Of a DNA stretch of 64,000 bases, positions 9,145 to 63,519 are shown in pieces (within the stretch, counting starts at the first letter, position 1; the number at the start of each line of letters is the position of its first letter). Source of the stretch: Muribaculaceae bacterium (GTDB taxonomy: Bacteria > Bacteroidota > Bacteroidia > Bacteroidales > Muribaculaceae). Location of the stretch: the NCBI GenBank assembly GCA_016290325.1, contig JAEETL010000001.1, forward strand, positions 248,001-312,000. Reading direction: 5' to 3'. The position numbers and the translations under genes are program-made. A model generated the notes under the pieces. The model worked only from the letters and a program-made list of their open reading frames with translations, ran no database searches and was not told where the DNA came from.

Positions 9145-10770
9145 TTAATTCGCCAGAATTGAATCTATGAGGGCTGTGACATCTGCCACGTTGATGTCGC
9201 CGTTGGCGTCCACATCGGCTGCCGTGGTATTAAACGGCGAAGGCGTGCGACCCAGGAGGTAATCAATCAATGTAGTCACGTCAGCGATATTAACAAAACC
9301 ATCTTCGTTCACGTCTCCCAGTTTGAAGGCAATGTTGACAGTGAAGTGGTGGGGGCCCAATTCGCCGAACACTGGTTGTTGATAGCGGTGTCCTGACTCA
9401 TCGGCACCGAAGACGTAGTAGTCCACCTCTGACGCTTGGTGATAGCCCTTGATGTAGCCCACATATTCATCGGGATTGCCGGTGGCTGTCATGTGTGCGG
9501 CCTGATAGGGCCCGTTGTCAATGCTGTAGTAAACCAGTAGCGAGTCCTCTTTCAGGGGGTCTCCACTATAGGCAATAAACTTGCTCGTCACAGCGATGGA
9601 ATCTCCACACTCTTGCGTGCCGAAGAGCACGTTCCTGTGGTCGACAAACAGCATCTCGAAGTCCATCACACCACGCGTGCGGCAGTGCAGGGCATCGGTG
9701 TTTTGCCAACCGGTGCTGTAGGATGTGTTGGACACGCCAATCACCTCGTAACCGGGCATGGCGTCCCTGTAGACCTGGAGCGCCCGTTCATTGTAAGTGC
9801 TGTTGCTGCCTAGCGGCACGTAGACGCACTTATTGAGGATCAGGCTATTGGTATAAGGAGCAAGGGTGCTGCCACCAGGTTCTTCAACGCGGTACACCTT
9901 GTAGGGATAGCCCCAGCAGCAGTTGGTTGTGGCGAAATAGTTGGCCACGTCCTCATAGTACTGATATCGGCTGTTGGACTGGGGCAGTTTCGCGATCAGG
10001 ATTTTATCAGGGGCGAGGTATTTTCCCCAGCAATCGACATGGGCAATATATTCTCCCTGTGGGTCGATGGTGATATGGTAGTTGTCGATGCCTAGGTAGT
10101 CAAGCATCTTTTGGCGCACATTGGCCTCGTTATTGTTGTTCTCTCTAATGACCAGATCGTCACTAACGCCGTGACCGCGACCGTCCTCCATCATGTTGCC
10201 TCCAGTGTGTTGCAGGTTCATGCTGTAGAGGGGGATATCCCAGAACGTGGCGAAGGTCTGAGGTATTGCATCGTCGTTAGGTCGAGGACGATTATACACG
10301 TTGTCGACGATGGCAGGCGTTTTGCCGGCAAAGATATACCAGGGACCATAGTCGCGCACCCAGTAGGAATCTGAATTCGCGATCACAAAGGTGACACGAC
10401 TCATGTTCACCCCCGCATTGGAGAAACTCGACCGTGCGCTTGACTGTTGGGACGACTGCACGATGCAGTACACTTGGCAGTTCTCGGCCAACGATTTAAC
10501 CAAGGAAACAGGTATGCCAAGCGGATAGCGAATCATTACGCCCTGCATGGGCTCAAACTCTGCCACGAAGCGGGGGGCTTCGGTGGGCGCGGGTGTCTCT
10601 GTGAAGTTGATGCTCCTCCTAACAGGGGTTTTCATCTCTTCTTCTGACAGGTAATGAAGTTTTCTCCAGTCAGGTGCTTCGTGCGTCTGTGCTTGGGCGT
10701 TCATGTAGCCCATTGTCGACATCATAGAAGCGAATACAAGTAAAGCAAAAAATGATTTTAATCTTTTCAT
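9145..10770 (-). CDS. secreted peptidylarginine deiminase (PPAD-like) with C-terminal dockerin pair
   Basis: 541 residues. Signal peptide about 1-27 (cleavage after AQA). Residues about 65-385 are a Porphyromonas-type PAD domain (PF04371) that would convert peptidyl-arginine to citrulline. Counterparts of the known PPAD residues are visible: WVRDYGPW with Asp140, NRPRPND with Arg161 and Arg163 (the pair that grips a C-terminal arginine's carboxylate in PPAD), YIAHVDCWG with His244 and Asp246, YTNS with Asn308, and ALHCRT with nucleophile Cys363. The Arg pair argues for peptidylarginine rather than free agmatine. An Ig-like linker follows, then two dockerin repeats (GDVNEDGFVNIADVTTLID; DVDANGDINVADVTALID) at the extreme C-terminus instead of the type IX tail of PPAD. 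-7 box at 10799-10792. Confidence 0.88.
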   Translation of the reverse strand: MKRLKSFFALLVFASMMSTMGYMNAQAQTHEAPDWRKLHYLSEEEMKTPVRRSINFTETPAPTEAPRFVAEFEPMQGVMIRYPLGIPVSLVKSLAENCQVYCIVQSSQQSSARSSFSNAGVNMSRVTFVIANSDSYWVRDYGPWYIFAGKTPAIVDNVYNRPRPNDDAIPQTFATFWDIPLYSMNLQHTGGNMMEDGRGHGVSDDLVIRENNNNEANVRQKMLDYLGIDNYHITIDPQGEYIAHVDCWGKYLAPDKILIAKLPQSNSRYQYYEDVANYFATTNCCWGYPYKVYRVEEPGGSTLAPYTNSLILNKCVYVPLGSNSTYNERALQVYRDAMPGYEVIGVSNTSYSTGWQNTDALHCRTRGVMDFEMLFVDHRNVLFGTQECGDSIAVTSKFIAYSGDPLKEDSLLVYYSIDNGPYQAAHMTATGNPDEYVGYIKGYHQASEVDYYVFGADESGHRYQQPVFGELGPHHFTVNIAFKLGDVNEDGFVNIADVTTLIDYLLGRTPSPFNTTAADVDANGDINVADVTALIDSILAN

Positions 10771-11093: not shown

Positions 11094-12842
11094 TTAACTA
11101 TTCAAAATGATGTCAATAACTTCATTGATGTCACTGATGTTTACCTCGCCGTCTTCGTTGACATCCGATCGGCCTTCAGAGTTGTCAACGCCACCCAAGA
11201 TGATGTCGATGAGAGCATTAATATCTGCAATGTTAACCTCGAAGTCACCGTTCACGTCCCCCTTCGGATAGATGATGATAGGGGTGGGGCGGGGCGGGAA
11301 AAGATTCTCACAATCATTTTCATCAAGGAATGCCATGCGGCGACGGATCCAATCCTCTACATAATCCATTTCTTGGCTGAGGTCGAGAGTCTTCCAGGCC
11401 AGATCGAAGTCATGGCTCCAGCGCCTCTCCTCGCGTGATGCAGCACCACAGTTTTCCAACTCATCGATTGCGCTGCGATAGCGGTTCACCAGGCTATCGG
11501 TGTTGAGTACTGTCTGGCGCAGTTCCTTGTAGCGTTGTTTTACTTGGTCACGGTACTCTTCAATACCTATCATGCCAACCATGGGCAAATGGTTTACCCA
11601 GTCCATGTGGCGTTCGGGTTTTACCATGTCGGGCATGTCTACCCCTGGCGCATAGTTCTGGCCTAGGCAGATGTCCAAATCCCAAGGAACAATGGTTAAT
11701 CTGGGGTGATCTTGAGTGTCATAGCAAGCATAGAAAATGTTCTTGCTCTCGTTGTCCAGTGCTTGGAGCGTTGCGATGAAGATATAATAGTCTTGCAAAA
11801 TGGGTACATCAAAGTAGTAACTCAGACTGTCCTTGCGCAACTCGATATCATCATCAGCTCGATTGGCAAACCAAACGGCATTATACAGCACATCCCAGTT
11901 CAACTGGCTTACCTCATCTGGATCAGGATATTTAGTTTCAAATCCATTCCATGTACTAAGGTAGGGAACTAACCAAGTAGGCTCACTCATGGTAACATTG
12001 CGTGTCCATGTGTATGCCATCCACAATTGTCCATGGAACTCATTATTTTCCTCATCATAGCGTTTGAGCTTCATTTGCTTGCGGTCAATGGGCTCACACA
12101 TGTTATAGATGCCCATGTACTTTCCATTAAGTAGCACCTCAACCATTTGGCCGCGCGAGCCATTGCGGGCATTGGGCAGGGTGTCGCTATACCAGGGGCG
12201 ACGGGCCATATCGAGCCACAGGTCTGTACTTACACGATTGCGAACACGTAGGAAGTCTACCTGACCGGCATCCAATATCCAGCTGTTGTCATTACGCAGG
12301 CCAAAGAAGCGGTGATTCTCCTTAGTGCTGTCATCATCGTTAACAAATTTGATGCGGTAGTTACGCTTATTGCTCAGAGGCTTGTTTGTGGAGATGCCGC
12401 GCCACTTCACCTTTGCCAGCAAAGGCTCAGCCAAAGCGGAGTCGGGCTCTTGAACCCTTACTGAACCATACTCGTATTCATTACCGAAGTTGCCATTCAG
12501 TTCCACAATAGGAAGCCAAGTGAAAGCGATTTTGCCGGTAATGAGGTCGTCGCCTACATAGACTGCTGCTTCATATTCCTTGCCGCTGCCAATACCTTCA
12601 AAGGTGACAGTGCCGCCACCACCGATGGCATTACCTTCAATAATTATCTCTGTGACGAGAGTATCTACATAATTGATTGTTGTCGTCCAATCATTGCCAA
12701 AATGCTCCTGTGGAATGGTACACAGCCACATGTTGTAGCGGCTGTCAAATACTGTGCGATGGCCTCCGATGCTAAAGGATTGCGCCCAAGCGCCAATGCC
12801 AGTCAGCAGAAGCAAAAGTACCCAAAGAAACCTTTTCCTCAT
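11094..12842 (-). CDS. secreted CotH-family protein with C-terminal dockerin pair
   Basis: 582 residues from ATG 12842. A longer frame to 12911 would place the -7 box (12887-12880, TATCTTTG) inside the gene, and only the internal start begins with a clean signal peptide (MRKRFLWVLLLLLTGIGAWA). After a beta-rich N-terminal part, a CotH kinase-like domain (PF08757) runs from about residue 140 to 500: KVKWRG, NYRIKF, NSWILDA, VEVLLNGKYMGIYNMCEPID, and the metal-binding-type VPWDLDICLG at 386-394. CotH proteins are atypical protein kinases best known from spore coats; the extracellular role in Bacteroidales is unknown. The last 55 residues are two dockerin repeats (GDVNGDFEVNIADINALID; DVNEDGEVNISDINEVID). 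Confidence 0.86.
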   Translation of the reverse strand: MRKRFLWVLLLLLTGIGAWAQSFSIGGHRTVFDSRYNMWLCTIPQEHFGNDWTTTINYVDTLVTEIIIEGNAIGGGGTVTFEGIGSGKEYEAAVYVGDDLITGKIAFTWLPIVELNGNFGNEYEYGSVRVQEPDSALAEPLLAKVKWRGISTNKPLSNKRNYRIKFVNDDDSTKENHRFFGLRNDNSWILDAGQVDFLRVRNRVSTDLWLDMARRPWYSDTLPNARNGSRGQMVEVLLNGKYMGIYNMCEPIDRKQMKLKRYDEENNEFHGQLWMAYTWTRNVTMSEPTWLVPYLSTWNGFETKYPDPDEVSQLNWDVLYNAVWFANRADDDIELRKDSLSYYFDVPILQDYYIFIATLQALDNESKNIFYACYDTQDHPRLTIVPWDLDICLGQNYAPGVDMPDMVKPERHMDWVNHLPMVGMIGIEEYRDQVKQRYKELRQTVLNTDSLVNRYRSAIDELENCGAASREERRWSHDFDLAWKTLDLSQEMDYVEDWIRRRMAFLDENDCENLFPPRPTPIIIYPKGDVNGDFEVNIADINALIDIILGGVDNSEGRSDVNEDGEVNISDINEVIDIILNS

Positions 12843-12879
12843 AAATTGATCAATGTTGTTTAATAATAATTTTAAACTG

Positions 12880-12887
12880 CAAAGATA
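12880..12887 (-). promoter_or_regulatory. -7 box deciding the CotH start
   Basis: TATCTTTG on the minus strand, 38 bases before ATG 12842; rules out the upstream start at 12911. Confidence 0.6.
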
Positions 12888-13093
12888 CAAAAAAAGTTTA
12901 TATGACGTCATTTAGAGGCAGTTATTTCAATTTTATTTTTATTTGATAAGTTTTTATGGCTCCATCGGTATTTCAATCATATTGTGAAAAGATTGAAAAA
13001 AAACAATAGTTTTTTTGTTTTTTGTGTTCCAAAAGCTAAAAATGAAGTAATTTTGTTCTCTCATTTCATTTACTTTGAAACCACTCGTCTGCA

Positions 13094-31889: not shown

Positions 31890-34262
31890 TTATTGTTTCA
31901 TGATGTAGTCGATGACCATATTGATGTCCGAGATGGTGATTTCGTGGTCATTATTCACGTCGGCAGCGGGGTTTGTGCCATTGCCCAACATGACATCGAT
32001 GATGCTGTTGATATCGGCAATGGAAACCTCACCGTCACCATTCACGTCACCAGGGACATGAGGCGGCACGTTGGGCACATTAATTGTGTAAAAAGGCGAG
32101 TAGCAGAATCCTTTCCTTGTGCCATTACTGTAGTAAGCGCCCATAGTGAAGTATCTCCATCCATCTGACACGTTGTCAAACTCAAAATGAACTGTTGTAG
32201 TCTGGCGGGGTCCCAATTCCAAATATTGGCTCTTGGCCTGTACTGTGGTACCCGAGTTGTCGTAGACGTGCTTATACAGTATCATTGAAATATCCTCCCT
32301 GTAGGTGGATGTTCTGCTATTGTTGGTTACGGTTAAATCAACGCAGAATTTGTCACCAGTGATGACGTTGTTGACGTTATCGGTAACGTTAAGTGCCTGG
32401 ATACTGCCCGATAAGTCGGCAGCGGGCATGGCAGTGATGCTTATCGTCCTGTAGCCCAATGGGTCGCTGCCGTCCTCTTTGAGCGAGAAGGTGACATCGT
32501 AGTAGCCTGTTGCTTGGGGCATGAAACGGAAGACGACGTCTCCACTCTGACCGGGTTCAATATCAGCAATACCGACAGATTGGTATTCTACGCCCGCCTG
32601 AGGTGAGTTGGCAAACATGTAAATCACGTCATGGTCTGAGTCACCAGTGTTGGTCAAGTTCAGGATAATGTCTACTGGTCGACTCTGGTGCAAAGTGCCA
32701 TTGACGGTAATTTGGTTTACTGAGTAATCTGAAATTGCTGCCGAACCATAGCCCTTAAAGTTGCAATGGTTACCACTGATGGTCACCTCAATATAGTTAT
32801 GGTTGCCTCCCTGGCATGGTTCCCAGTCGCTTGAGGCGTTCTTGCGGTAAATGGGCATGATTTTAAAAGTGCCCGAAGTGATGCCAGAGCCAAAGCTGAC
32901 CACCTTATCTACTAGACTATAGTAATAATTGGGCGAGAGGTTACAGTTGTATTGACCGATGACCTCAACCAGCGTGTTGTTGCTTTTGTTGTAGCGTCCC
33001 CATGCGTAGTTTCCTTGAAGGGGTTGGCCGGTGAAGTTGTGTAGGCTAGCTGATAAGGTTGCTGAGAAGCTTTCATTTGTCGCCGTTCGGTTTTGCGTGT
33101 AGTCTGACATTTTCAGGTCACGAGCCGTAAGGTTGAGTGTACGGGTACCACCGTTTCCGGGCTTGATGCCGACGACAGCGAGCTGGTTAAGGATATAGCC
33201 CTCGGATCCCGTCGCGCTACCTGTGCCTTGCAGGTCGGGGTTGAGCACGTTGAGTGCGAAGTAACCGTTACTTTGCCCGTTCCAGCCCCAGTTGATGTGG
33301 AACAAGCCGTATTGGTCACAGCCGTCGCACACGAAGGCGTGACCACCGCTTCTCTTTCTGCCCGAAAGGATAACGGGGCGATTCTCGGCCAACTCGGCAT
33401 AAATGGCGTCTTCCCAACCCTGTGCAGTGTAACTCTCACGGCTGATGGTATGTATTCCGGAATGGTAGCCAAAATACTCTGAAAGCAGATACATGATGTC
33501 GGGTGTATAGGCACTCGATGCATTAGTGCCGAAGTCCATTTTAAGTGCTTGTGCGCAGTATAACACAAGTTTAGCGACCGCTGTACTGTTCCCGCTTAAC
33601 GTGTCACTGGTGAGATATGAGTTCTGCATCATGGACCAATTAAAACTGGTAGCAGGCAGCTCGCCCATATTGATTCCATTGGTTTTTGAGGTATAGGGAG
33701 GAATGGGACCGTCAATGCTGGCTGGCCATTGCCAGTAATGCATCACCTGGGCCATCGCGATAGCCACGCATCCAGCCAGGACGCGCTCGCCGTTTATCTT
33801 GGGCAACAAGATGTTGTAAGGTTGACGTTGGTTCCACTGGGCATTCACAAGCGGGGATATGGCAACGCGGGAAATCGAGGGTGCTGCCATTGCTCCCTCT
33901 TGCATCGCTGCGATTTGAGCGGCATAGCCGTCAAGCATTTCCTGCATGGCGGGCGGCACGTTGTCGTTGTCAAAACTCCCGGCATCACTGTAGCCCAGCA
34001 CAGGAATGGCTTGATCATCACCAGCAATAATCACATATCCGTCACTAGGTCCGCCTGTATTGAAAATATAGTAGGCGGCATGGTTGTCCGGCGCCGCAGT
34101 TGTGTGGGTTGCCGCGCGGCGCAGTGTCATGGGACGGGCATTTTGCCCCGCAAGGAATTGCGCGGCTATACTTCGGGCTTGTGACTCGGTTATGGGTTCT
34201 GCCACGGCAATCAGCGAGATGGCAAGGCTCATAAGGGCCATAAATAGTTTAGAAATTCTCAT
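31890..34262 (-). CDS. secreted C10 (streptopain-type) cysteine peptidase with dockerin pair
   Basis: 790 residues. Signal peptide 1-21 (SLIAVAEP). Residues about 22-130: Spi-type propeptide inhibitor (TESQARSIAAQFLAG, YVIIAGDDQAIPVLGYS). Residues 140-345: C10 peptidase with Cys165 in LAGCVAIAMAQVMHYW, His308 in SGGHAFVCDG and the NWGWNG loop at 324-329. About 390 residues of beta-sandwich follow, then two dockerin repeats (GDVNGDGEVSIADINSIID; DVNNDHEITISDINMVID) that reach to within three residues of the end. A complete, apparently active zymogen. Paralogue of the next gene upstream. -7 box TATTTTTG at 34326-34319. Confidence 0.93.
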   Translation of the reverse strand: MRISKLFMALMSLAISLIAVAEPITESQARSIAAQFLAGQNARPMTLRRAATHTTAAPDNHAAYYIFNTGGPSDGYVIIAGDDQAIPVLGYSDAGSFDNDNVPPAMQEMLDGYAAQIAAMQEGAMAAPSISRVAISPLVNAQWNQRQPYNILLPKINGERVLAGCVAIAMAQVMHYWQWPASIDGPIPPYTSKTNGINMGELPATSFNWSMMQNSYLTSDTLSGNSTAVAKLVLYCAQALKMDFGTNASSAYTPDIMYLLSEYFGYHSGIHTISRESYTAQGWEDAIYAELAENRPVILSGRKRSGGHAFVCDGCDQYGLFHINWGWNGQSNGYFALNVLNPDLQGTGSATGSEGYILNQLAVVGIKPGNGGTRTLNLTARDLKMSDYTQNRTATNESFSATLSASLHNFTGQPLQGNYAWGRYNKSNNTLVEVIGQYNCNLSPNYYYSLVDKVVSFGSGITSGTFKIMPIYRKNASSDWEPCQGGNHNYIEVTISGNHCNFKGYGSAAISDYSVNQITVNGTLHQSRPVDIILNLTNTGDSDHDVIYMFANSPQAGVEYQSVGIADIEPGQSGDVVFRFMPQATGYYDVTFSLKEDGSDPLGYRTISITAMPAADLSGSIQALNVTDNVNNVITGDKFCVDLTVTNNSRTSTYREDISMILYKHVYDNSGTTVQAKSQYLELGPRQTTTVHFEFDNVSDGWRYFTMGAYYSNGTRKGFCYSPFYTINVPNVPPHVPGDVNGDGEVSIADINSIIDVMLGNGTNPAADVNNDHEITISDINMVIDYIMKQ

Positions 34263-34483: not shown

Positions 34484-36871
34484 TCAAGAATTGAGCAACA
34501 TATCGATAAGCTCGGTTACATCCTTGATGGTGATGCTGCCATCACCGTTGATATCTGATCCCTCGAGATTGATGTCAGTGTTGCTGTCCAGCAGGAAGTC
34601 AATCAGGGTGGTTACGTCCTTGATGGTCACATCACCGTCACCGTTCACATCGCCAATGATTACTGCAGGCTCCTCGGGGAAGACGATGGTGTAGTAATAT
34701 GAGCTGGTGAGATTTGCCTGTGAGCCACTGCTGTAGTAGTAGAGATTGACAAAGTATTCCCAGCCGTTAACAACGTTGTCCAAGTCAAATTGGATGGTAG
34801 TGGTTGCTCCGGCAGCCAATGACAAGGGTGTATTAATTGCTTGTACTGTCGTGCCCATGTTACCATAGATGTTCTTGTACATCTTGATGGAGATGTCCTC
34901 ATTGTAGGCAGTTGAGCCGTTGTTGGTAACGGTGAGCACTACGCTGAATTTATTGCTGTTAATGGTATAGCCTGTAGCATTCAGCACCTGGAGGGTTCCA
35001 GAGAGGTTGGCGGCAGGCATCGCATTGATGGTAATCGTGCGGGTGGCGATGGGGTCGCTACCGTCGTCGTTGAATGAGAACGTGAGTGTATAGGTTCCCG
35101 TAGCACTGGGCACGAATCTGAAGGGGATGTCGCCGGTCTCGCCAGGAACTAAGCCCACATAGCCAGTGGAAGTGAATGTGCCGTTAACAAACATGTACAG
35201 CAGCAGGTTGTCCGATTGGCCGTTGTTGGTCATGTTCACATTGATGTCAACCGGGCGGGTAGGATGCATGAAACCGCTATAAGTGATGTCGTTAACCGTG
35301 TAGTTGGTGGTGGCGGCGGTGCCATGACCCTCGAAGTAGCAGTTGTTGCCGTCGATGGTCACCTCGATATAGTTGTGCTCGGCACCGGCACAAGGACGCC
35401 AATTATTTTGGCTGTACTCAGTGAACATGGGCATGATGCGGTAGGTGCCACTGGTTATGCCCTCGCCAAACGTCAGTTCACGGTTCGTGTGGCGGTGGAG
35501 GTAGCCAGGTCTAAGGGTGTGGTTGTAGGCACTATAGAGATTGTCAATCAATTCACCATTCTGGAAGAGGCCCCAGCCAAAGCGCATGTCAAGTGTGTCG
35601 GAAGAATAATTGTGGAACTCGCCTGAAACATAGACCTTGAACGGGTCGGTCGTGTAGTTGCGTGTGCCAATGTAGCTATCGAGCTTGACATTTTTTGCCG
35701 TGAGTTCAAATAAGTGGCTGCCACCCTGGTTGGGCTGGAAGCCCACGATGGCGCCTTGGGAGTAGATGTAGCCATAGCTACCGTTAGCGCTACCCGTGCC
35801 TTGCAGGTCGGGATTGAGCACGTTGAGCAGGAAGTAACCGTTGCTCTGGCCGTTCCAGCCCCAGTTGATGTGGAACATGCCGTTGCCGTCATAGCCGTCG
35901 CAGATGAAGGCGTGGCCACTGCTCTTTTTGCTGCCACTGTAGATGACAGGGCGTCCAGCTGCCAACTCGCCGTAGAGCAGGTCGGCCCAGCCTTGAGTAG
36001 TGTAGCTCTCGCGGCCTTCCATGTGGGCTCTGGCGTCATAGTCAAAGTAGGTGGTGGCCCAAAGGGGAACGCTGGAAGTGGTTGCACCCGATGCTGAGGG
36101 CTTAAAAGTCATCTGCACAGCTTGGGCACAGTACAGGCTTAACCTGGAGGCTGCCAATCCGGCTTGAGAGGTCGTGTCAGTTGTCAAGTAGGTGTCCTGC
36201 ATGGCGCTCCAGTCAAAGTCGATGACTGGCAACTCAGGCATGTAGATTTTTAATGTGTCAGTGCCGCTAATCGCGTATACACTGGTATAGGCGGGTATCG
36301 ACCGAGTGGGTCGAGCAGGCCATTTCCAGTAATACATCACTTGAGCAAATGCCGTGGCGACGCAACCCACATAGGCGTGCTTGCCGTTAGGCAGGAAGGG
36401 GAACAGGATGTTGAAAGGGTTATTCTGTGACCAGGTTGCCGGCACCATGGGCCTGATGGCAGGTCTGGCCTGGAGCTGAGTGGCTACCTGTGCGCCCTTG
36501 TCCAGATCCTCGATTTGGGCGGCATAACCGTCGAGCCATTCCTGCATGGCAAGAGGAACGGCGTTAGCATCAAAGGTGCCGTTATCACTGTAACCCAGTA
36601 CGGCGGGAGCACGGTCATCGCCGGCAACGATGATGAAACCGCTGTTGCTGCGGTCGCCGTTAAACACATAGTAAGCTACCTGACCGCCTGTTGGTGTAGC
36701 GCTCATGCGTGGTGCCTTGAGTGCAGTTGTCAGCGTTGATTTCAACGCGCCGCGGCTGGCCAGGAAGTTTTCGGCGACAGCCTTAGCCTGGCCCTCAGTG
36801 ACTGGGCCTGCCCACACGCAGTTGGACACAGCTAAACAAAGAAAAAGGAGAAATGTTTGAAATCGTCTCAT
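34484..36871 (-). CDS. secreted C10 cysteine peptidase with dockerin pair (paralogue)
   Basis: 795 residues from ATG 36871. The frame extends to 36979, but a TATCTTTG box at 36914-36907 lies in that extension and only the internal start gives a signal peptide (MRRFQTFLLFLCLAVSNCVW). Propeptide with TEGQAKAVAENFLASRG and FIIVAGDDRAPAVLGYSDNG; catalytic Cys170 (YVGCVATAFAQVMYYW), His320 (SSGHAFICDG) and INWGWNGQSNGYF. Same beta-sandwich tail as its neighbour, ending in dockerin repeats GDVNGDGDVTIKDVTTLID and DINGDGSITIKDVTELID. Each C10 gene has its own promoter and terminator, so they are regulated separately. Confidence 0.93.
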   Translation of the reverse strand: MRRFQTFLLFLCLAVSNCVWAGPVTEGQAKAVAENFLASRGALKSTLTTALKAPRMSATPTGGQVAYYVFNGDRSNSGFIIVAGDDRAPAVLGYSDNGTFDANAVPLAMQEWLDGYAAQIEDLDKGAQVATQLQARPAIRPMVPATWSQNNPFNILFPFLPNGKHAYVGCVATAFAQVMYYWKWPARPTRSIPAYTSVYAISGTDTLKIYMPELPVIDFDWSAMQDTYLTTDTTSQAGLAASRLSLYCAQAVQMTFKPSASGATTSSVPLWATTYFDYDARAHMEGRESYTTQGWADLLYGELAAGRPVIYSGSKKSSGHAFICDGYDGNGMFHINWGWNGQSNGYFLLNVLNPDLQGTGSANGSYGYIYSQGAIVGFQPNQGGSHLFELTAKNVKLDSYIGTRNYTTDPFKVYVSGEFHNYSSDTLDMRFGWGLFQNGELIDNLYSAYNHTLRPGYLHRHTNRELTFGEGITSGTYRIMPMFTEYSQNNWRPCAGAEHNYIEVTIDGNNCYFEGHGTAATTNYTVNDITYSGFMHPTRPVDINVNMTNNGQSDNLLLYMFVNGTFTSTGYVGLVPGETGDIPFRFVPSATGTYTLTFSFNDDGSDPIATRTITINAMPAANLSGTLQVLNATGYTINSNKFSVVLTVTNNGSTAYNEDISIKMYKNIYGNMGTTVQAINTPLSLAAGATTTIQFDLDNVVNGWEYFVNLYYYSSGSQANLTSSYYYTIVFPEEPAVIIGDVNGDGDVTIKDVTTLIDFLLDSNTDINLEGSDINGDGSITIKDVTELIDMLLNS

Positions 36872-36906
36872 AGTACAAAATGTTTTTAGAGGTGAAAGAT
36901 TTGCTG

Positions 36907-36914
36907 CAAAGATA
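36907..36914 (-). promoter_or_regulatory. -7 box deciding the C10 start
   Basis: TATCTTTG on the minus strand, 35 bases before ATG 36871. Confidence 0.55.
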
Positions 36915-36991
36915 ATGAATTTTAATGAATAAACGGCCAAAAAAAACCATTTCTTGGTCCTATTGGCCGTTTCTGTCATGTTATTGTCGCG

Positions 36992-45075: not shown

Positions 45076-45112
45076 TCCCGCTTAGTTACATAACTACACA
45101 TTGTCTAGGAAT

Positions 45113-47050
45113 ATGAATGATAGATGTCATATGTGCTCCATTCAACGTGCAGACATGAGGGTGATTGTTCTTGTTTTAGTGGCAATTCTCCTGATGGCAC
45201 CTTCGATCCATGCAACTAAATACTTCACTTTCACCGACGGTCATGTGCATGTTTTCCCTACTGCCTACATCTTGAGCATCTCAACAAGATATGATGTTGT
45301 TACCGTCACCGACCGCCATGGTGGAACCTATGTATATAACCGTGCTGATATCGTCTCGATTGAAAATGAGCTTTCAAAGGAGCTGCCCACGTTCACGTCC
45401 TATCTGTTTGACAACAAGTACAATTATCAGGTTCCTATCGATGCGATAGGGCTCATTACAAATGATCAAGTCAATGCTAGCGTCGCTGGCATCGGCAAGA
45501 GATTGACCGCTACATTTACCTTGTCTGACAACGCCGCGCGCGCCTATGTGAATGGAGTGGAACAAACGAGTGCAGTGAGCCGCCTGCGCTTTGATTCGAG
45601 CGTTCAATACACGGTGGGTTATCCGGGTGACATGATACTCAGTTTATCTAGTGAGGGAGAATATGTCATGATGCCTTTTGGCCGGCTGTATACTGTTACT
45701 GCCGATTTCCTGACCGACCATAGCTCGTCGGTTCCACGCATTGATATCAATACGGTGGATGGAGTGAACATCGTTAGCAAGGAGGAATATGTTGATGCCG
45801 AGATCATCATTGACGGAGCCGGGGTTTTCCCTTCAATGACCGATTCGGTGAAAATCCGTGGCAGGGGTAATACGTCGTGGTCACCCAACCCTGCCGCCAA
45901 GAACCCTTACCGTCTCAAGTTTAGTGAAAAGGTGAAGCCTTTTGGCCTTACCAAGGGTAAAAATTGGGTGCTGCTTGCTAATAAGCAGTATGGATCGATG
46001 CTGACAACTGCTGTCGGAATGAAGGCGGCTAGCCTGATAGGCGTCGTTGCAGCTAATCATGTGATTCCTGTTGATCTGTATATCAATGGCACATATAAGG
46101 GCAATTACAATTTCTCCGAGAAAGTGGGGGCTTCAAACAACAGCGTGGATTTGGACGATGAGACGGTTGCAGCCTTACTGGAACTGGATTATTATTTTGA
46201 TGAGGCCGATAACCAGAAATTCCGTTCCGATCCGTGCAACATCCCGGTCAATGTCAAGCATCCCGAGTTTGACGAGGACGTGACCTTCCTCACGTTGACT
46301 GAGATCCAATCGCGTTTTAATGCCTTTGTGAGTGCCGCTAACAATGGTGAAGATCTGGCCGATTATGTGGATATTGACAAACTGGCCCGCTACATGATGT
46401 TTAATGAACTGGCATGCAATAAGGAGATTTACCACCCTAAGAGCTTGTTCTGTTATTGGGAAAGTGTGCCAGATAATGCCAGCAAACTTGTTTTTGGTCC
46501 TGCTTGGGATTTTGACTGGGCTTTTGGCTACGCCCAAGGTGCGTCCGACAGTTATTTCAACAATCTGATCAATTACGATTACTTTAACCTCCCATACATG
46601 GGGTTGCAGTATCAGTTCGTCAGTGGCCTGGGTAAAGACCAGCAGGTTTCGTACCGCATGTTTCAGTTGTGGTGGGATTTCATTGGTGATGGATTGGATG
46701 AGTTGTGTGAGTTCTGCCAGGATTATTATGATTACGCGGCCCCATCACTGATAAATAGCAAGAGGGCGTATGCCGATCCCACCGACTATCGTGTTCAAGC
46801 AACTCAGGCGGTGAATTGGTTAAGACAACGCGCTGACCTCATTTACCAAAGGTTGAAATCGTTGCATATGATTCCTGGAGATCTTGACGGCGATGGCAAC
46901 GTGACGATAAATGATGTTGTAATTCTCATTGATTACATATTAGATGGAACAACCGACCCGTTTACTGAAATGGTGGCTGATGTCGATGGTGATGGCTTTG
47001 TGGCAATCACCGATTTGACCGTCTTGATTGATGAGTTGTTTGCCCAATAA
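45113..47050 (+). CDS. secreted CotH-family protein with C-terminal dockerin pair (second)
   Basis: 645 residues from ATG 45113; the signal peptide proper starts at a later ATG (45155, MRVIVLVLVAILLMAPSIHA), which may be the true start. A beta-rich N-terminal half precedes a CotH kinase-like domain at about 245-560: SVKIRGRGNTSWSPNP, NPYRLKF, KNWVLLAN, VDLYINGTYKGNYNFSEKVG and the metal-site motif PAWDFDWAFGY. The end carries two dockerin repeats (GDLDGDGNVTINDVVILID; DVDGDGFVAITDLTVLID) finishing four residues before the stop. Followed by a gene encoding a cohesin-like protein, a suggestive neighbour. Confidence 0.88.
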   Translation: MNDRCHMCSIQRADMRVIVLVLVAILLMAPSIHATKYFTFTDGHVHVFPTAYILSISTRYDVVTVTDRHGGTYVYNRADIVSIENELSKELPTFTSYLFDNKYNYQVPIDAIGLITNDQVNASVAGIGKRLTATFTLSDNAARAYVNGVEQTSAVSRLRFDSSVQYTVGYPGDMILSLSSEGEYVMMPFGRLYTVTADFLTDHSSSVPRIDINTVDGVNIVSKEEYVDAEIIIDGAGVFPSMTDSVKIRGRGNTSWSPNPAAKNPYRLKFSEKVKPFGLTKGKNWVLLANKQYGSMLTTAVGMKAASLIGVVAANHVIPVDLYINGTYKGNYNFSEKVGASNNSVDLDDETVAALLELDYYFDEADNQKFRSDPCNIPVNVKHPEFDEDVTFLTLTEIQSRFNAFVSAANNGEDLADYVDIDKLARYMMFNELACNKEIYHPKSLFCYWESVPDNASKLVFGPAWDFDWAFGYAQGASDSYFNNLINYDYFNLPYMGLQYQFVSGLGKDQQVSYRMFQLWWDFIGDGLDELCEFCQDYYDYAAPSLINSKRAYADPTDYRVQATQAVNWLRQRADLIYQRLKSLHMIPGDLDGDGNVTINDVVILIDYILDGTTDPFTEMVADVDGDGFVAITDLTVLIDELFAQ

Positions 47051-47157: not shown

Positions 47158-47778
47158 ATGAGACGATTCTTGATGATAATATTGGCTGCGGTGTTTACGC
47201 TCGCGGCTGTAGCACAAAGGAACAGGATATATATCGAGGATTTTGAGATTTATCCCGACTCAACCATTACTGTACCCGTCATGTTGGCTAATATGGATTC
47301 CACGCGAGGCATCCAGTTCAATATCACATTGCCTAGTGGACTCAAAATATTAGAGTGCAATTTGACCCCCTATGCCGATGAATATGACATGTTCCTTTTC
47401 CAAAACAGCACTGCTAGCGGGACAACAATTGGTATGTATCCTCTTTCAAGGGTCTGCTTTCCTCCCGACACCATGGCTGTGTTGATGATAGAATTTAAAG
47501 CCAAGTCTGATTTTGCGGGTGGTGAGATAATCTTGTGGAAATGTAGGGGCTCTACAATGGAGAACACAACTATTATTATTGGTAATGATACCACGATGGT
47601 AACGTTACCCTCTAGCTCCCTTATTGGCATCCCTATAGACAATCGCCCTGATGGAGACCAATACTTTAATTTGTTAGGGCAACCCATCCCTTCTGCCGAT
47701 AGTGTGCCTGTCGCTGTGCGTGTGACTACTAGGCCCGATGGCACTATTGATTCACGTAAAGTGGCACAAATGCGTTAG
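47158..47778 (+). CDS. secreted cohesin-like protein with type IX-like C-terminus
   Basis: 206 residues from ATG 47158 (GTG at 47152 is an alternative). Signal peptide about 1-19 (VFTLAAVAQ). Residues about 22-150 have the strand order of a cohesin/jelly-roll: IYIEDFEIYPDSTITVPVML, ANMDSTRGIQFNITLPSGLK, then later TMAVLMIEFKAKSDFAGGEI and ILWKCRGS. The opening 'VPVMLANM...GIQFNITLPSGLKI' closely mirrors the first strands of type I cohesins. The C-terminal 45 residues (DQYFNLLGQPIPSAD, VPVAVRVTTRPDGTIDSRK) resemble a type IX sorting tail. If real, it could hold dockerin-tagged proteins at the surface. Fold call is by eye; moderately sure. Confidence 0.6.
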   Translation: MRRFLMIILAAVFTLAAVAQRNRIYIEDFEIYPDSTITVPVMLANMDSTRGIQFNITLPSGLKILECNLTPYADEYDMFLFQNSTASGTTIGMYPLSRVCFPPDTMAVLMIEFKAKSDFAGGEIILWKCRGSTMENTTIIIGNDTTMVTLPSSSLIGIPIDNRPDGDQYFNLLGQPIPSADSVPVAVRVTTRPDGTIDSRKVAQMR

Positions 47779-47876
47779 GGCATTTTGCGCCATGCACATT
47801 GGCAACCAGCATTAAACTTCTTGGACCGATTGGTGTCTAATGTGAAAAATTCACTTTAGATAAATTGACGTGTGTG

Positions 47877-48623
47877 ATGAAAAGGCTATTGACAACTGTT
47901 TTGCTCATGGTGGCGATCGTGCTGCCGCAGCAGGCATTTGGGCGTGACTACAGCAACGAGACGCTCAATTACGAGATCGTGTATCATTGGGGCATGATTT
48001 GGAAACATGCCGCCGATGCCACTTTGAATATACGTAAATCAGGCAACGGCTATAAAGCCCAACTCACGGGCAAGACCCGCTCATGGGCCGATAAGGTCTA
48101 TCCAGTGCGCGACACGCTCAAGTGTACACTCAACGCCGACTTGAAGCCCTTGGTTTATGAAAAACTGACCCATGAGAAAGATTACTATGCTCGCGACGTG
48201 GTCAAGTTCTCTTATAACTACAGCCACACCAATGCCCACTGCACCCGTTACCGCAAGAGCGGCACGACCACCATTGACTTGAGCGCCAAGGCACAGGCCT
48301 ATGACATGCTCAGCGTCTTTTATATGCTGCGCAACCTCAACTATGACGAGTTAGCCCGCAACAAGAACTACACGACGGTCATCTTCTCGGGCAAGGAGAA
48401 GGAATACCTGACCATCAACTATAAGGGTGTCGAGAGCATCAAGATGCGCGACGGCAGCAAGCGTCAAGCCCATTGCATCACCTTCCGCTTCACCCAAAAG
48501 GGCGGTAAACAGTCCAGCGACAATATCACCGTGTGGATGGCTACCGACGACAGCCGCATCCCCTTGCTGCTGGTCGGCAAGCTCCCCGTCGGCGAGGTCA
48601 AGTGCTACTACACCGCTAAGTAA
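47877..48623 (+). CDS. DUF3108 family secreted protein
   Basis: 248 residues from ATG 47877 (a TTG at 47865 would add four residues). Signal peptide about 1-22 (VLPQQAFG). The mature part matches the Bacteroidota DUF3108 layout: NETLNYEIVYHWGMIWKHAA at the start, CTLNADLKPLVYEKLTHEKD, and the end TVWMATDDSRIPLLLVGKLP followed by GEVKCYY. Predicted periplasmic beta-barrel-like lipocalin-type fold; function unknown. About 100 bases after the cohesin-like gene and probably separately transcribed. Hairpin at 48670-48696 follows. Confidence 0.85.
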   Translation: MKRLLTTVLLMVAIVLPQQAFGRDYSNETLNYEIVYHWGMIWKHAADATLNIRKSGNGYKAQLTGKTRSWADKVYPVRDTLKCTLNADLKPLVYEKLTHEKDYYARDVVKFSYNYSHTNAHCTRYRKSGTTTIDLSAKAQAYDMLSVFYMLRNLNYDELARNKNYTTVIFSGKEKEYLTINYKGVESIKMRDGSKRQAHCITFRFTQKGGKQSSDNITVWMATDDSRIPLLLVGKLPVGEVKCYYTAK

Positions 48624-59987: not shown

Positions 59988-60075
59988 AACGGCCAATTTT
60001 TCGTTATATGGTTAAAAAATAATTGTGTGCCTTCAATGGGATAACCCGCAAGGCGCACTTGACACTATAACTGCA

Positions 60076-63000
60076 ATGATGAAAAAAACGATGAAATATC
60101 TCACCCGCTTGGCCTTATGCATAGCCCTATTGGCTTGCAGCGTCTTCACTGCAAGCGCTTTCGACAGGAGTTTCTATGCCGAGAGCAGCAAACTAGCCAC
60201 TGGCAAATGGGTGAAGATTTCAGTGAACGAAAGTGGTATATACCAAATCACAGCCGATGACATCCGCGGTTGGGGACTGGGCAGTGACCTGTCCCAAATC
60301 CATGTGTTCGGCTATGGTGGTGCACCGTTGAGCGAGGTGATGTCGGCAAAATATGCTGACGACCTCCCACAGATGCCAGTGGTGCGCACCGCCAACAGCA
60401 TCCTGTTTTATGGGCAAGGTCCGTTGACATGGACTGAAAAAAGCAGCGATTTCCCCTACGTTCAGACTCAACATCCTTATGCCCTCTACGGCTCTTATTT
60501 TGTTACCAACGATAGCCGTTTCAATGATATTGAAATCGATGTGGCAGGTAATATCGCTACTGGTGAGGCGGTTTCCACCTATACAGAACGCCTTTATCAT
60601 GAGCAGGATATCATCAACCCTGGTGAGACGGGTCGAGTTTTCTTGGGAGAGAGTTTCACGTCAGACAAACCGCAATCTTTTAAATTCAACCTCGACGGGT
60701 TAATTGGCGGTAGCACGGTTAATGTCTACACGGTCTTTTGCGCTAAGATGACGGGAGCCGGCTGTAGAATCACCCATTCCTATAATGATACCCCCATATC
60801 ACCATCAGATACGATCGTACCGGTAGAGGATGTCACCCATGAGCATTACAACATTGGTAAATTTACCAAGTCGATTACTCTCGGGAACACCAATGAACTG
60901 GATTACAAGCTCAACTTTCACAGTCGTGCTAATGTGCTATTGTCACGCCTAGACTTTATTACGGTGAATTATGAGCGACAATTGGCATTGCGTGATGGGA
61001 GCCTGGCCTTTGGCCTTCATAAAGCCAGGAGGAATGTTAAGTATCGCATTTCGGGTTGTGGAAGCAACACTCGTGTTTGGGATGTTACGGTTCCTTATCA
61101 TCCTGTTCAGCTCAATACGGTCTCTGGCGGAGAAGGAACAATCGACTTCAGCCCCGAGAGTGACGGGCGCAAGGAGTTTGTCGCCTTTAATGAGACAGGG
61201 AATTTTCTTCGTCCCGAGTACTTGGGCGAGGTGTCCAATCAGGATATCCATGGCATGGAAACTCCTGACATGATCATTATCTCTCCTAGCGCTTATCTTG
61301 AGCAGGCTTACCGGGTTGCCGACCTGCATGAGAAAGTTGACAAATTCAGGGTGCTGGTCCTGGATCACGAGAAGGTGTTTAACGAGTTTTCCAGCGGCAC
61401 TCGAGACGCGATGGCTTATCGCCGCGTGTGCAAGATGTTTTTTGACCGTGGAGCCGATGCTGAAGGACATAAACTGGGCTATCTGCTGTTGATGGGCTGC
61501 GGTAGTTATGACAATAAACTCATCGGCACCAACCGTGACGCCTTGAATTATCCTAGCCTATTGACATGGCAAACCGAGGCTAGCAACAATGAGAACTCTA
61601 CCTTTATCCCAACAATAACGACCGATGACTATTTCGCTATTCTTGGTGACAACAGCACTAAGAATTATACCGAGAAAATGGACATTGCGGTGGGCCGTAT
61701 GCCGGTCAAGAGCGTGACCGAGGCCCGAAACGTGGTGAACAAGCTGATCAAGTATGTGACAACGCCAGACTATGGTTCCTGGAAGAATCAGGCGCTCATA
61801 GTGGCCGATGATGGAAATCAAGCCAAGCACATGATCCAGTCTGATTCTCTGGTGAATAACGCCCGTCTTTTTGGCGGTAAAGACATCGTGTTTAATCGCG
61901 TGTACATTGATGCCTTCAATGCGGTCAGTCAAGGTGGATCTGATACATATCCTGATGCTCGAGCCAAGATGTTCTCAGCCCTCAAGGAGGGAACCCTATG
62001 GTGGAATTACGTTGGTCACGCCAGTACCCAAAACTGGACTGCTGAGGGTTTGATGATGCGCTCCGATGTTGAGACCCAGCTCTTTTACAAGCATCTGCCG
62101 GTGCTGTATGCCGCTACGTGCGAGTATAGCCGTTTTGACAGTTCGATACAATCAAGTGGCATTCATATCTTTTTGAATCCCAATGGTGGTGCTATTGCTG
62201 TGATTTGTCCAGCCCGATTGGCTGCAATTGACGAGAATGGCTATCTGACCGGTGCTGTCGGAAGGGTTGCGTTCTTGCCTGATGAAACTGGTCGTCCGCG
62301 CCGCATTGGAGACATATTCAGGATCGCTAAAAATAGTGTTGTACGCTCTAGCGAGAACAAACGCCGTTTCTTTGTCTTTGGTGACCCTGCCATGAGGTTG
62401 GCTTATGCCCCTTACGAGGCTAAGGTTGAGACCATTAACGGACAACCTGTCGGTAGTAATCCCAGACCTGTATTCAAGGCTCGAGAGCAAGTGGAATTCA
62501 GTGGTAAGATTGTGAACTGGAAGGGTGAATTGGCGACTAATTTTAATGGTACCATTGTCTCGACATTATTCGACGCTGAGCAGTCGGTGACCACCAATGG
62601 CAATGGAGAGGGCGGCCAGCCCCATACCTTCTTGGATCGTGCTAACCGCTTGGCAATTAATGTGGATTCGGTGGTCGATGGCCGTTTTAAGGTGCGTGTC
62701 ATTATCCCCAGCGAGGTCAATAACGAGTATGACGATTTCAGTTCGGCACTGATCAATCTCTATGCTTATGACTCTGGCGATTCGATTGAGGCTAAAGGCG
62801 CTAATAGCGATTTCGTCATCTATGGCTATGAGGATGAAGTGGTGGCCGATACCATTGGGCCGGAAATCATTACTTTCACCTTGAATGACGATAATTTTGT
62901 CGATGGCGCTGATGTCAACGATTCACCATTGATGATGGCCACGGTGGGTGACGAGAGCGGAATCAATTTCTCCTCTGCAGGTATTGGTCACAGTTTGAGC

Positions 63001-63519
63001 TTAACCCTTGACGGTACCAACACTTTCAACGACCTTGTGAGCTTCTATACGCCTATGTTTGCCGAAGAAGGAACTTTGGGCAACATCACTTACCAGTTGA
63101 GCGACCTCACGTCTGGCCCTCACACCCTGCGACTACGCGTTTGGGATGTCTATAACAACGTGAGCGAGAAAACCATCTCGTTCAATGTCGTTCCTGGCCT
63201 TGCACCCGAGATTGCCGACGTGTACGCTACTTCCAATCCGGCTAGTGTTGAGACCTCCTTCTATGTTAAGCATAACCGTCCTGACGCTATCGTGAACGTG
63301 ACCATTGAGGTTTATGACCTCATGGGCCGATTGGTATGGAAGACTACCCAATCAGGACGCAGTGACATGTACCGATCCAACCCGGTGACTTGGGACTTGA
63401 CCGATAGAGGCGGAAGGCGTGTGTCGCGTGGAATCTATGTTTATCGTGCCACTATCTCGACCGATGGTGTGAAAGAAGCCACCAAAGCCAAGAAACTGGC
63501 TGTCACGAGCGAGTATTAA
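60076..63519 (+). CDS. porU: type IX secretion system sortase PorU
   Basis: 1147 residues from ATG 60076 (the frame extends to a GTG at 60025, but the signal peptide starts at MMKKTMKYLTRLALCIALLA). Cell-surface gingipain-fold (C25) cysteine transpeptidase that removes type IX tails and joins cargo to anionic LPS. Catalytic His648 in NYVGHASTQNW and Cys682 in AATCEYSRFDS, close to Cys690 of the Porphyromonas enzyme. Ends in a FlgD-like/type IX-like domain (NVTIEVYDLMGRLVW, WDLTDRGGRRVSRGIYVYRA, KKLAV). Its partner PorV is not the next gene, unlike many genomes. Terminator follows at once. Confidence 0.95.
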   Translation: MMKKTMKYLTRLALCIALLACSVFTASAFDRSFYAESSKLATGKWVKISVNESGIYQITADDIRGWGLGSDLSQIHVFGYGGAPLSEVMSAKYADDLPQMPVVRTANSILFYGQGPLTWTEKSSDFPYVQTQHPYALYGSYFVTNDSRFNDIEIDVAGNIATGEAVSTYTERLYHEQDIINPGETGRVFLGESFTSDKPQSFKFNLDGLIGGSTVNVYTVFCAKMTGAGCRITHSYNDTPISPSDTIVPVEDVTHEHYNIGKFTKSITLGNTNELDYKLNFHSRANVLLSRLDFITVNYERQLALRDGSLAFGLHKARRNVKYRISGCGSNTRVWDVTVPYHPVQLNTVSGGEGTIDFSPESDGRKEFVAFNETGNFLRPEYLGEVSNQDIHGMETPDMIIISPSAYLEQAYRVADLHEKVDKFRVLVLDHEKVFNEFSSGTRDAMAYRRVCKMFFDRGADAEGHKLGYLLLMGCGSYDNKLIGTNRDALNYPSLLTWQTEASNNENSTFIPTITTDDYFAILGDNSTKNYTEKMDIAVGRMPVKSVTEARNVVNKLIKYVTTPDYGSWKNQALIVADDGNQAKHMIQSDSLVNNARLFGGKDIVFNRVYIDAFNAVSQGGSDTYPDARAKMFSALKEGTLWWNYVGHASTQNWTAEGLMMRSDVETQLFYKHLPVLYAATCEYSRFDSSIQSSGIHIFLNPNGGAIAVICPARLAAIDENGYLTGAVGRVAFLPDETGRPRRIGDIFRIAKNSVVRSSENKRRFFVFGDPAMRLAYAPYEAKVETINGQPVGSNPRPVFKAREQVEFSGKIVNWKGELATNFNGTIVSTLFDAEQSVTTNGNGEGGQPHTFLDRANRLAINVDSVVDGRFKVRVIIPSEVNNEYDDFSSALINLYAYDSGDSIEAKGANSDFVIYGYEDEVVADTIGPEIITFTLNDDNFVDGADVNDSPLMMATVGDESGINFSSAGIGHSLSLTLDGTNTFNDLVSFYTPMFAEEGTLGNITYQLSDLTSGPHTLRLRVWDVYNNVSEKTISFNVVPGLAPEIADVYATSNPASVETSFYVKHNRPDAIVNVTIEVYDLMGRLVWKTTQSGRSDMYRSNPVTWDLTDRGGRRVSRGIYVYRATISTDGVKEATKAKKLAVTSEY

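Follow-up and report, generated by a model that had tools for sequence, protein, structure and literature searches.

A predicted single-cohesin protein and a likely cohesin-dockerin system in a Muribaculaceae bacterium

Results

The gene at 47158-47778 and its surroundings

The window, i.e. the whole stretch of 64,000 nucleotides that was analysed, belongs to a genome of 2.93 Mb that is 91.7% complete. On the forward strand an open reading frame (47158..47778, +) encodes a protein of 206 aa. The frame is open and the product conserved among relatives, confirming that the gene is real; in one close pair a pN/pS of about 0.22 was determined. The protein begins like a signal peptide, continues with a domain of some 130 residues and closes with a tail of roughly 45. 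The N-terminus (residues 1-20, ...LAAVAQ; 47158..47217, +), as read from the sequence, resembles a signal peptide and would lead to secretion. No lipobox cysteine was seen when these 20 residues were read, and residues 2-18 form a helix in the predicted structure. Residues 22-148 (47221..47601, +) constitute a putative cohesin domain of nine strands, assigned by the predicted structure, Foldseek and a family profile. Within this domain, TRGIQFN marks the region of strand 3 and WKCRGSTMEN strand 8 with the following loop; the strands were numbered by us after the cohesin described in PMC5934362. The short C-terminal tail (YFNLLGQPI...SRKVAQMR; 47635..47775, +) was recognized by tail-profile matches. 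There is only one cohesin in the protein, not several as in a multi-cohesin scaffoldin, and a Pfam-type domain search did not reveal a CBM in it.

Domain searches identified a CotH-domain protein with a C-terminal dockerin (45101..47050, +; dockerin at 46874-47038) directly upstream and, together with locus comparison, a DUF3108 protein (47865..48623, +) directly downstream. In all, the window contains five dockerin proteins. Besides the one mentioned, these are four candidate cargo proteins with C-terminal dockerins on the opposite strand: a PAD_porph protein of the peptidyl-arginine deiminase family (PAD; 9145..10770, -), a second CotH protein (11094..12911, -) and two C10 peptidases with I69 propeptides (31890..34262, - and 34484..36979, -). 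Furthermore, a Peptidase C25 protein (60025..63519, +; Peptidase_C25, E 3.6e-77) is a PorU-like candidate sortase of a type IX system.

Matches to the 47158-47778 protein below E 1e-30 were detected in 17 of 36 same-genus genomes (drafts, 62-100% complete). The 24 genomes from other families gave none below this threshold; G039 among them disclosed weaker matches, from 1.4e-5. All 36 same-genus genomes harbor dockerins, yet only these 17 harbor the orthologue, and the protein is therefore probably not essential. The 21 named orthologous loci, whose genomes are partly shared with the 17, are labelled as uncultured Prevotellaceae, Muribaculaceae, Porphyromonadaceae or Bacteroidales, several of them from named ruminants. 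In seven of these 21 loci a same-strand CotH-dockerin gene precedes the orthologue by no more than 300 nt, and in 20 the DUF3108 gene lies directly downstream. With about 150 dockerin genes in 2.9 Mb, adjacency to a CotH-dockerin gene by chance is not rare. Thus, the CotH-dockerin neighbour described in the first-pass annotation is indeed present, but a special link to it was not borne out, and we rejected the adjacency as a weak argument.

Fold and homology of the N-terminal domain

A structure was predicted from 25 sequences (the protein itself, its 21 orthologues and three domains of the record L093). Across residues 21-150 the model reached pLDDT values of 92-98 per 10-residue block. In a Foldseek comparison with the PDB (best 50 of 60 matches with E<=0.001), ranks 1-27 were occupied by cohesin or cohesin-like modules (best E 2.9e-8), including the OlpA cohesin 3ul4; a TM score of 0.83 was obtained when normalised to chain 2jh2_C. 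The first non-cohesin fold appeared at rank 28 with an E of 4.1e-5, about a thousandfold weaker than the best match and equal to rank 27. The cohesin-like N-terminal domain postulated earlier was thus corroborated by a confident model, in which the cohesin jelly-roll came out on top and no different fold was preferred.

The Pfam model Cohesin (PF00963) aligned with residues 32-57 only (15.5 bits compared to a cut-off of 24.1; E 0.02), and the domain alone gave an E of 0.0053. Nowhere in the genome was the curated cut-off of PF00963 passed; this cut-off is a detection limit and no definition of a cohesin. Among the profiles of our own, a first small one (A1) yielded chance-like matches and was discarded. 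The family profile A4 included 70 related domains and was iterated from own-genome paralogues with known cohesins excluded; 4 of 67 extracted domains (three duplicates from overlapping loci and, for no particular cause, L050:2047-2421) were left out of its alignment. In the PDB, its top match and the sole one below 0.001 was cohesin 5 of Ruminococcus flavefaciens ScaB (5n5p, E 3.6e-7), the closest solved cohesin by profile, the match consisting of two stretches that are each weak alone (0.037 and 0.2). The next eight matches were cohesin chains as well (E 0.0098-0.13), followed by other folds intermixed. PF00963 was matched at E<=1 by 23 of the 70 A4 members (best 7.7e-8). A profile of whole orthologous proteins found no cohesin in the PDB, where only the wide family profile A4 succeeded. 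Based on the predicted model and these profiles, we regard a cohesin fold and cohesin homology of residues 21-150 as well supported.

The C-terminal tail and the type IX system

In the genome search the tail was left unmatched by TIGR04183 (Por_Secre_tail) at E<=1, and there was no match at E<=0.1; the Pfam tail models behaved likewise. TIGR04183 detected 13 genomic tails over its cut-off; the PorU-like C25 protein carries one of these, the 47158-47778 protein does not. A profile of the short tail retrieved 26 genome stretches at E<=1e-3, four of which are rows of the profile, the 47158-47778 protein included. Judged by these matches, the short tail appears to form a genuine family of local extent and might be a reduced version of a sorting domain. 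One further row of the profile originates from the window itself (31566-31694), where a 997-aa protein (28704-31697) ends in the same short tail (E 3.3e-18); this protein showed no NCBIfam match at E<=0.1.

Eleven of the 21 orthologues lack the tail. A tail hidden by a frameshift was absent from ten of these 11 genes, and L081 revealed a weak in-frame remnant. On the orthologue tree, which is poorly resolved (4 of 19 inner branches starred), five tail changes were counted (bootstrap 5-7). SprA_N was matched in the own genome with an E of 1.7e-186, and SprA was found in this and in 57 of 61 genomes. Judged at least by SprA, the host possesses a type IX system; the C25 peptidase at 60025-63519 may well be PorU. 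Type IX anchoring of the 47158-47778 protein, as initially proposed with PorU as the fixing enzyme, is only faintly indicated: the tail belongs to a family of its own, but the models of the type IX system do not match it and it is missing from about half of the orthologues. Surface fixation by the tail is possible in the own species and not general, because 11 of 21 orthologues do without it.

Dockerin proteins of the genome

At least 152 Dockerin_1 matches at E<=0.01, a few of them overlapping or antisense, were counted in the genome with 150 of 240 candidates scored. We analysed a sample of 76 dockerin ORFs, four of which encode cohesin proteins and some of which are cut by stretch ends. In 61 of the 76 the dockerin terminates at most 12 residues from the protein end. 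A Pfam search of these ORFs (E<=1e-4; 25 of 38 families listed) gave LRR_5 of the BspA type (13), Peptidase C10 (12) and CotH (7) as leading cargo domains among the families listed, followed by M6 (5), S8 (2), alpha-amylase (2), GH53 (1), PAD (1) and others. C39_2, found in three of the 76 ORFs, was kept out of the peptidase tally because it overlaps with the C10 domain of one window protein. Hence, the listed families are led by LRR, C10 and CotH proteins and not by cellulases, and the many peptidases in the sample agree with the earlier notion of dockerin-tagged peptidases.

Both dockerin repeats were readable in 67 of 78 dockerins by a motif that requires some of the calcium-loop residues as well as one of I, V, A, L or G at position 10. 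Under this motif, Ile stood at position 10 in 127 of 134 repeats (first repeats, 64 of 67; second repeats, 63 of 67); the motif presupposes the calcium loop, and the calcium ligands are therefore no independent result. With their alike repeats, the dockerins would resemble dual-mode binders. In two regions of the genome (L103:265-10147 and L109:1-8485) runs of dockerin proteins occur, which exhibit cysteine pairs in the linker between the repeats (e.g. ICTTCADV, ACLVCADM).

Other cohesin proteins and scaffoldin-like arrays

The genome contains six solid cohesin-like domains in five proteins, as well as one partial (4e-5) and two weaker ones. On contig C22 (L012:9117-12289), a protein of 824 aa with the order LRR-Big2-cohesin-dockerin-cohesin-tail is encoded next to a signal-cohesin-dockerin protein of 221 aa, while contig C65 carries two LRR-dockerin-cohesin-tail proteins. 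In our view the C22 pair is a better receptor candidate than the 47158-47778 gene. The assumption that the latter encodes the main receptor was thus not upheld, as there are five more solid cohesin-like domains in the genome and the scaffoldin-like proteins of the genus are products of other genes.

Three congeners have a pair resembling that of C22 (L052:4352-8836 in G010, L053:5744-10247 in G011, L054:5658-10145 in G030), in which a dockerin-cohesin-tail gene adjoins a second gene whose product, 913-917 aa long, contains six cohesin-like domains in tandem and has a dockerin at its end. The profile calling these arrays was trained on those very loci, and Pfam Cohesin matched none of the three proteins at E<=0.1. 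At the corresponding gene of other genomes, one or two cohesin-like domains were found. By their domain order, the tandem architectures look like scaffoldins and would be primary-scaffoldin-like proteins of Bacteroidales.

Some further cohesin proteins deserve mention. In G039, which belongs to another family of the order, seven cohesin-like domains lie in one protein of 3,771 aa (L057:1619-12934), whose C-terminus is, judged by eye, longer and similar to that of type IX substrates. In a MAG labelled Bacteroidaceae from sheep rectum, a dockerin-cohesin protein adjoins a protein with three cohesin-like domains (L093:3969-9665); this record lies outside the orthologue set. Modelling of its three tandem domains without an alignment gave a pLDDT of 64.3 and a pTM of 0.36, and the model was discarded. 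Cohesin proteins with one dockerin repeat found at the end occur in G003 (L050:514-1761), G027 (L056:4495-5724) and G004 (L142), and these end repeats resemble the cargo dockerins of their species.

Co-occurrence with dockerins and dockerin types

We surveyed 61 genomes with at most 87 dockerin candidates scored in each. All 37 genomes of the genus, the own one included, contained at least 29 dockerin matches and 1-15 cohesin-like domains, and G039 at least 38 matches and 24 domains. In the remaining 23 relatives 0-2 dockerins were detected; 22 of them were devoid of cohesins and G057 had three. In an order-wide sample of 247 genomes, a dockerin match (E<=0.001) was obtained for 86, of which 19 contain the cohesin family (E<=1e-8); the family was found in none of the other 161 (Fisher p 4.7e-10, kinship among genomes uncorrected). 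Five of the 19 genomes possess a single dockerin match, and many of the order-wide cohesins are part of a dockerin-bearing chain. The co-occurrence with dockerins across Bacteroidales that had been suggested as a check was therefore observed, and the family is not common in the sampled genomes without a dockerin match. Seven genomes (G088, G127, G139, G148, G151, G223, G270) gave 12 to at least 25 dockerin matches and no family cohesins at E<=1e-8; the dockerin partner there, if any, would be another protein. For G127, G148, G151 and G223, the alignment of most listed dockerin matches starts at position 8 of the model.

Typing of the dockerins was performed by eye with all dockerin classes in view, using 1-18 cargo motifs per genome and 143 for the own one. 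The recognition helices are TIADVTALID-like (I), TSADITALYN-like (Y) or DVxDVNxxIN-like (N). They are largely uniform inside a genome and different between genomes; G016 is untyped, and G009 and G022 were typed on odd or single motifs. In all 16 typed cases, the terminal dockerins of cohesin proteins are closer to the cargo of their own genome (identity 0.28-0.78) than to the mean of other types (0.16-0.37), the margin being small in G034 (0.28 vs 0.22) and in one of the three G027 cases (0.28 vs 0.24), a dockerin unlike the type of that genome. In this comparison the genome from which each dockerin came ranked 1 to 15 among 31 genomes, the seventeenth case being the untyped G016. A common partner would impose just such a joint shift of one recognition surface across many unlinked genes. 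The orthologue was detected in 15 of 17 I-type genomes and in none of five Y-type and eight N-type genomes (phylogeny uncorrected); its distribution and the dockerin type probably both follow phylogeny. A second dockerin class (e.g. NVTDVMCVANYIVG) is internal to some cohesin-tail proteins. Compared with own cargo, 17 of 30 internal dockerins had identities of 0.00-0.33 and the other 13 of 0.37-0.93.

The predicted dockerin-facing surface

In ScaB cohesin 5, Gln-778 bonds helix 1 of the dockerin (PMC5934362). In the A4 profile alignment this residue, position 39 of the 138-residue chain that starts at 740, pairs with Q53 of the 47158-47778 protein. Gln occupies the Q53 column in all 22 orthologues and in 59 of 70 family domains. 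We consider this correspondence in the aligned sequences the best single argument that the protein may bind dockerins. Conservation of the whole face was rejected as an argument for binding, since the 8-3-6-5 sheet expected to face the dockerin and the opposite sheet are alike in mean entropy (1.68 vs 1.64). Strands 5 and 6, which bear many dockerin contacts in ScaB5 (PMC5934362), are variable. No clear covariation of cohesin columns with the dockerin type emerged (p 0.15 and 0.18), and p was 0.035 in the mixed set of all, in which the I class consists mostly of orthologues of the 47158-47778 protein.

Discussion

The data make a cohesin-dockerin system in this genome likely, and the 47158-47778 protein is a plausible single-cohesin receptor of it. 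We consider it moderately probable that a secreted one-cohesin module captures dockerin-tagged exoproteins as a receptor of a shared system. According to this proposal, the gene product would be exported and would in essence consist of one cohesin module, whose 8-3-6-5 sheet may capture C10, M6 and S8 peptidases, BspA-type LRR proteins, CotH proteins and others by their dockerins. The genome's LRR-dockerin-cohesin-tail and cohesin-dockerin proteins would be part of the same system. The short tail may aid retention at the cell surface in the own species and in about half of the orthologues; in tail-less orthologues the cohesin module would work without it. Against this reading speaks the small number of cohesins for so many dockerins.

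Cohesin-like modules are also found in proteins outside cellulosomes, and the domain might be a cohesin fold that has lost dockerin binding or never had it, serving as a structural spacer or as a binder of another ligand. The dockerin face without excess conservation, the variable strands 5 and 6 and the covariation p values of 0.15 and 0.18 are consistent with such a role, and the frequent occurrence of cohesin-like domains in one chain with a dockerin could reflect a structural pairing. We nevertheless judge a non-binding domain to be rather unlikely in view of Q53, invariant in the 22 orthologues, the co-occurrence with dockerins, the proteins of three congeners that combine six cohesin-like domains with a dockerin, and the concerted dockerin types. 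It is very unlikely, in our estimation, that the protein partners the DUF3108 protein, in the periplasm or in soluble form, with the cohesin fold serving envelope work and not dockerin cargo. The DUF3108 gene is a far more constant neighbour (20 of 21 loci) than the CotH-dockerin gene (seven), and the loss of the tail in 11 orthologues would fit; however, gene order may be mere inheritance inside one genus, the own-genome paralogues are dockerin-bearing proteins on other contigs, and the orthologue was seen only in I-typed genomes. Most improbable is a model without precedent to our knowledge, in which the dockerin is an address tag and cohesin-plus-tail proteins carry tail-less dockerin cargo to or across the outer membrane via the type IX system: SprA is present, 61 of 76 dockerin ORFs end at most 12 residues past the dockerin with only 13 TIGR04183 tails over the cut-off, and tail and terminal dockerin look to us like alternative endings, but the tail is unmatched by type IX models and absent from 11 of 21 orthologues.

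A wider version, which we hold to be quite improbable, would have cohesins and dockerins serve as an address code for the exoproteome of the genus: some 150 secreted proteins would bear a species-specific dockerin in place of a sorting tail, and a few cohesin-plus-tail carriers together with scaffoldin-like arrays would receive them and place them on the cell via the type IX system. If true, a genus known from ruminant-gut MAGs would possess a peptidase-rich assembly instead of a cellulosome.

Returning to the single-cohesin receptor as our preferred reading, known systems offer several comparisons. OlpA and proteins of the ScaE type are single-cohesin cell-surface anchors of cellulosomes, held by the S-layer or by sortase. 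The 47158-47778 protein is similar in combining one cohesin with a terminal module by which it would be kept at the cell, but differs from them in that this module is a short putative tail, missing from 11 of 21 orthologues. R. flavefaciens is a Gram-positive bacterium. Its large dockerin set comprises 223 proteins (PMC5429695), and its group 1 dockerins feature Ile-39 and Ser-40 (PMC5934362, PMC5429695), similar to the Ile-Ala/Ser found here, where the equivalence of the numbering is our own reading. The R. flavefaciens dockerins are described in the same sources as asymmetric with a single binding mode, whereas the repeats here are near-symmetric.

A predicted cellulosome-like system with dockerins on peptidases (S8, C25) and glycosidases was reported for Candidatus Stygibacter of the Cloacimonadota, including a scaffoldin-like protein with tandem cohesins and a C-terminal domain proposed for surface attachment (PMC8542988). 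Both hosts are non-Firmicutes with dockerins on peptidases, and both systems are predictions only. As far as the available text of PMC8542988 goes, Ca. Stygibacter has one giant scaffoldin of 3,755 aa and a handful of named dockerin proteins. The present genome, by contrast, has about 150 dockerin matches, small cohesin proteins and species-specific dockerin types, with many C10 peptidases, LRR and CotH proteins as cargo. The mucinolysome of Limousia is likewise cellulosome-like with a purpose other than cellulose and with some dockerin peptidases, and its scaffoldin dockerins are predicted to dock on an anchoring cohesin; its Firmicute host, CAZyme-led cargo and sortase anchor set it apart (PMC12997984). 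In a camel-rumen survey, in which dockerin-rich Bacteroidetes bins were noted, bin 136 contained five dockerins and one cohesin gene and was named among bins with two to four tandem cohesin domains per gene (PMC6071333). These cohesins came from standard cohesin profiles in a CAZyme survey, in whose accessible parts domain architecture, cargo and specificity are not analysed; tandem cohesins from one rumen Bacteroidetes bin are thus already published (PMC6071333).

Cohesin-dockerin assemblies are hardly described in this group of bacteria, and we found no prior description of the cohesin-dockerin system of this genus in the open-licence literature. Dockerins in PULs of rumen Bacteroidetes were reported without a defined role in the text at hand of PMC7480376, and the consulted portion of PMC5831590 states for a rumen Bacteroidetes genome that neither cohesin nor dockerin was found. 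According to the available sections of PMC12997984 (2026), descriptions of cellulosome systems are confined to Firmicutes, and the co-presence of cohesins and dockerins in Bacteroidetes therefore 'needs further investigation'. This locus and related ones provide cohesins as candidate partners, arrays resembling scaffoldins and dockerin types that differ by species, and the question can thus be tested directly with small soluble domains. The 47158-47778 protein may help to hold secreted proteins together, many of them protein-cutting enzymes. If the proposal is true, uncultured bacteria of the ruminant gut would use a plug-and-socket code to bring peptidases, LRR proteins and CotH proteins together.
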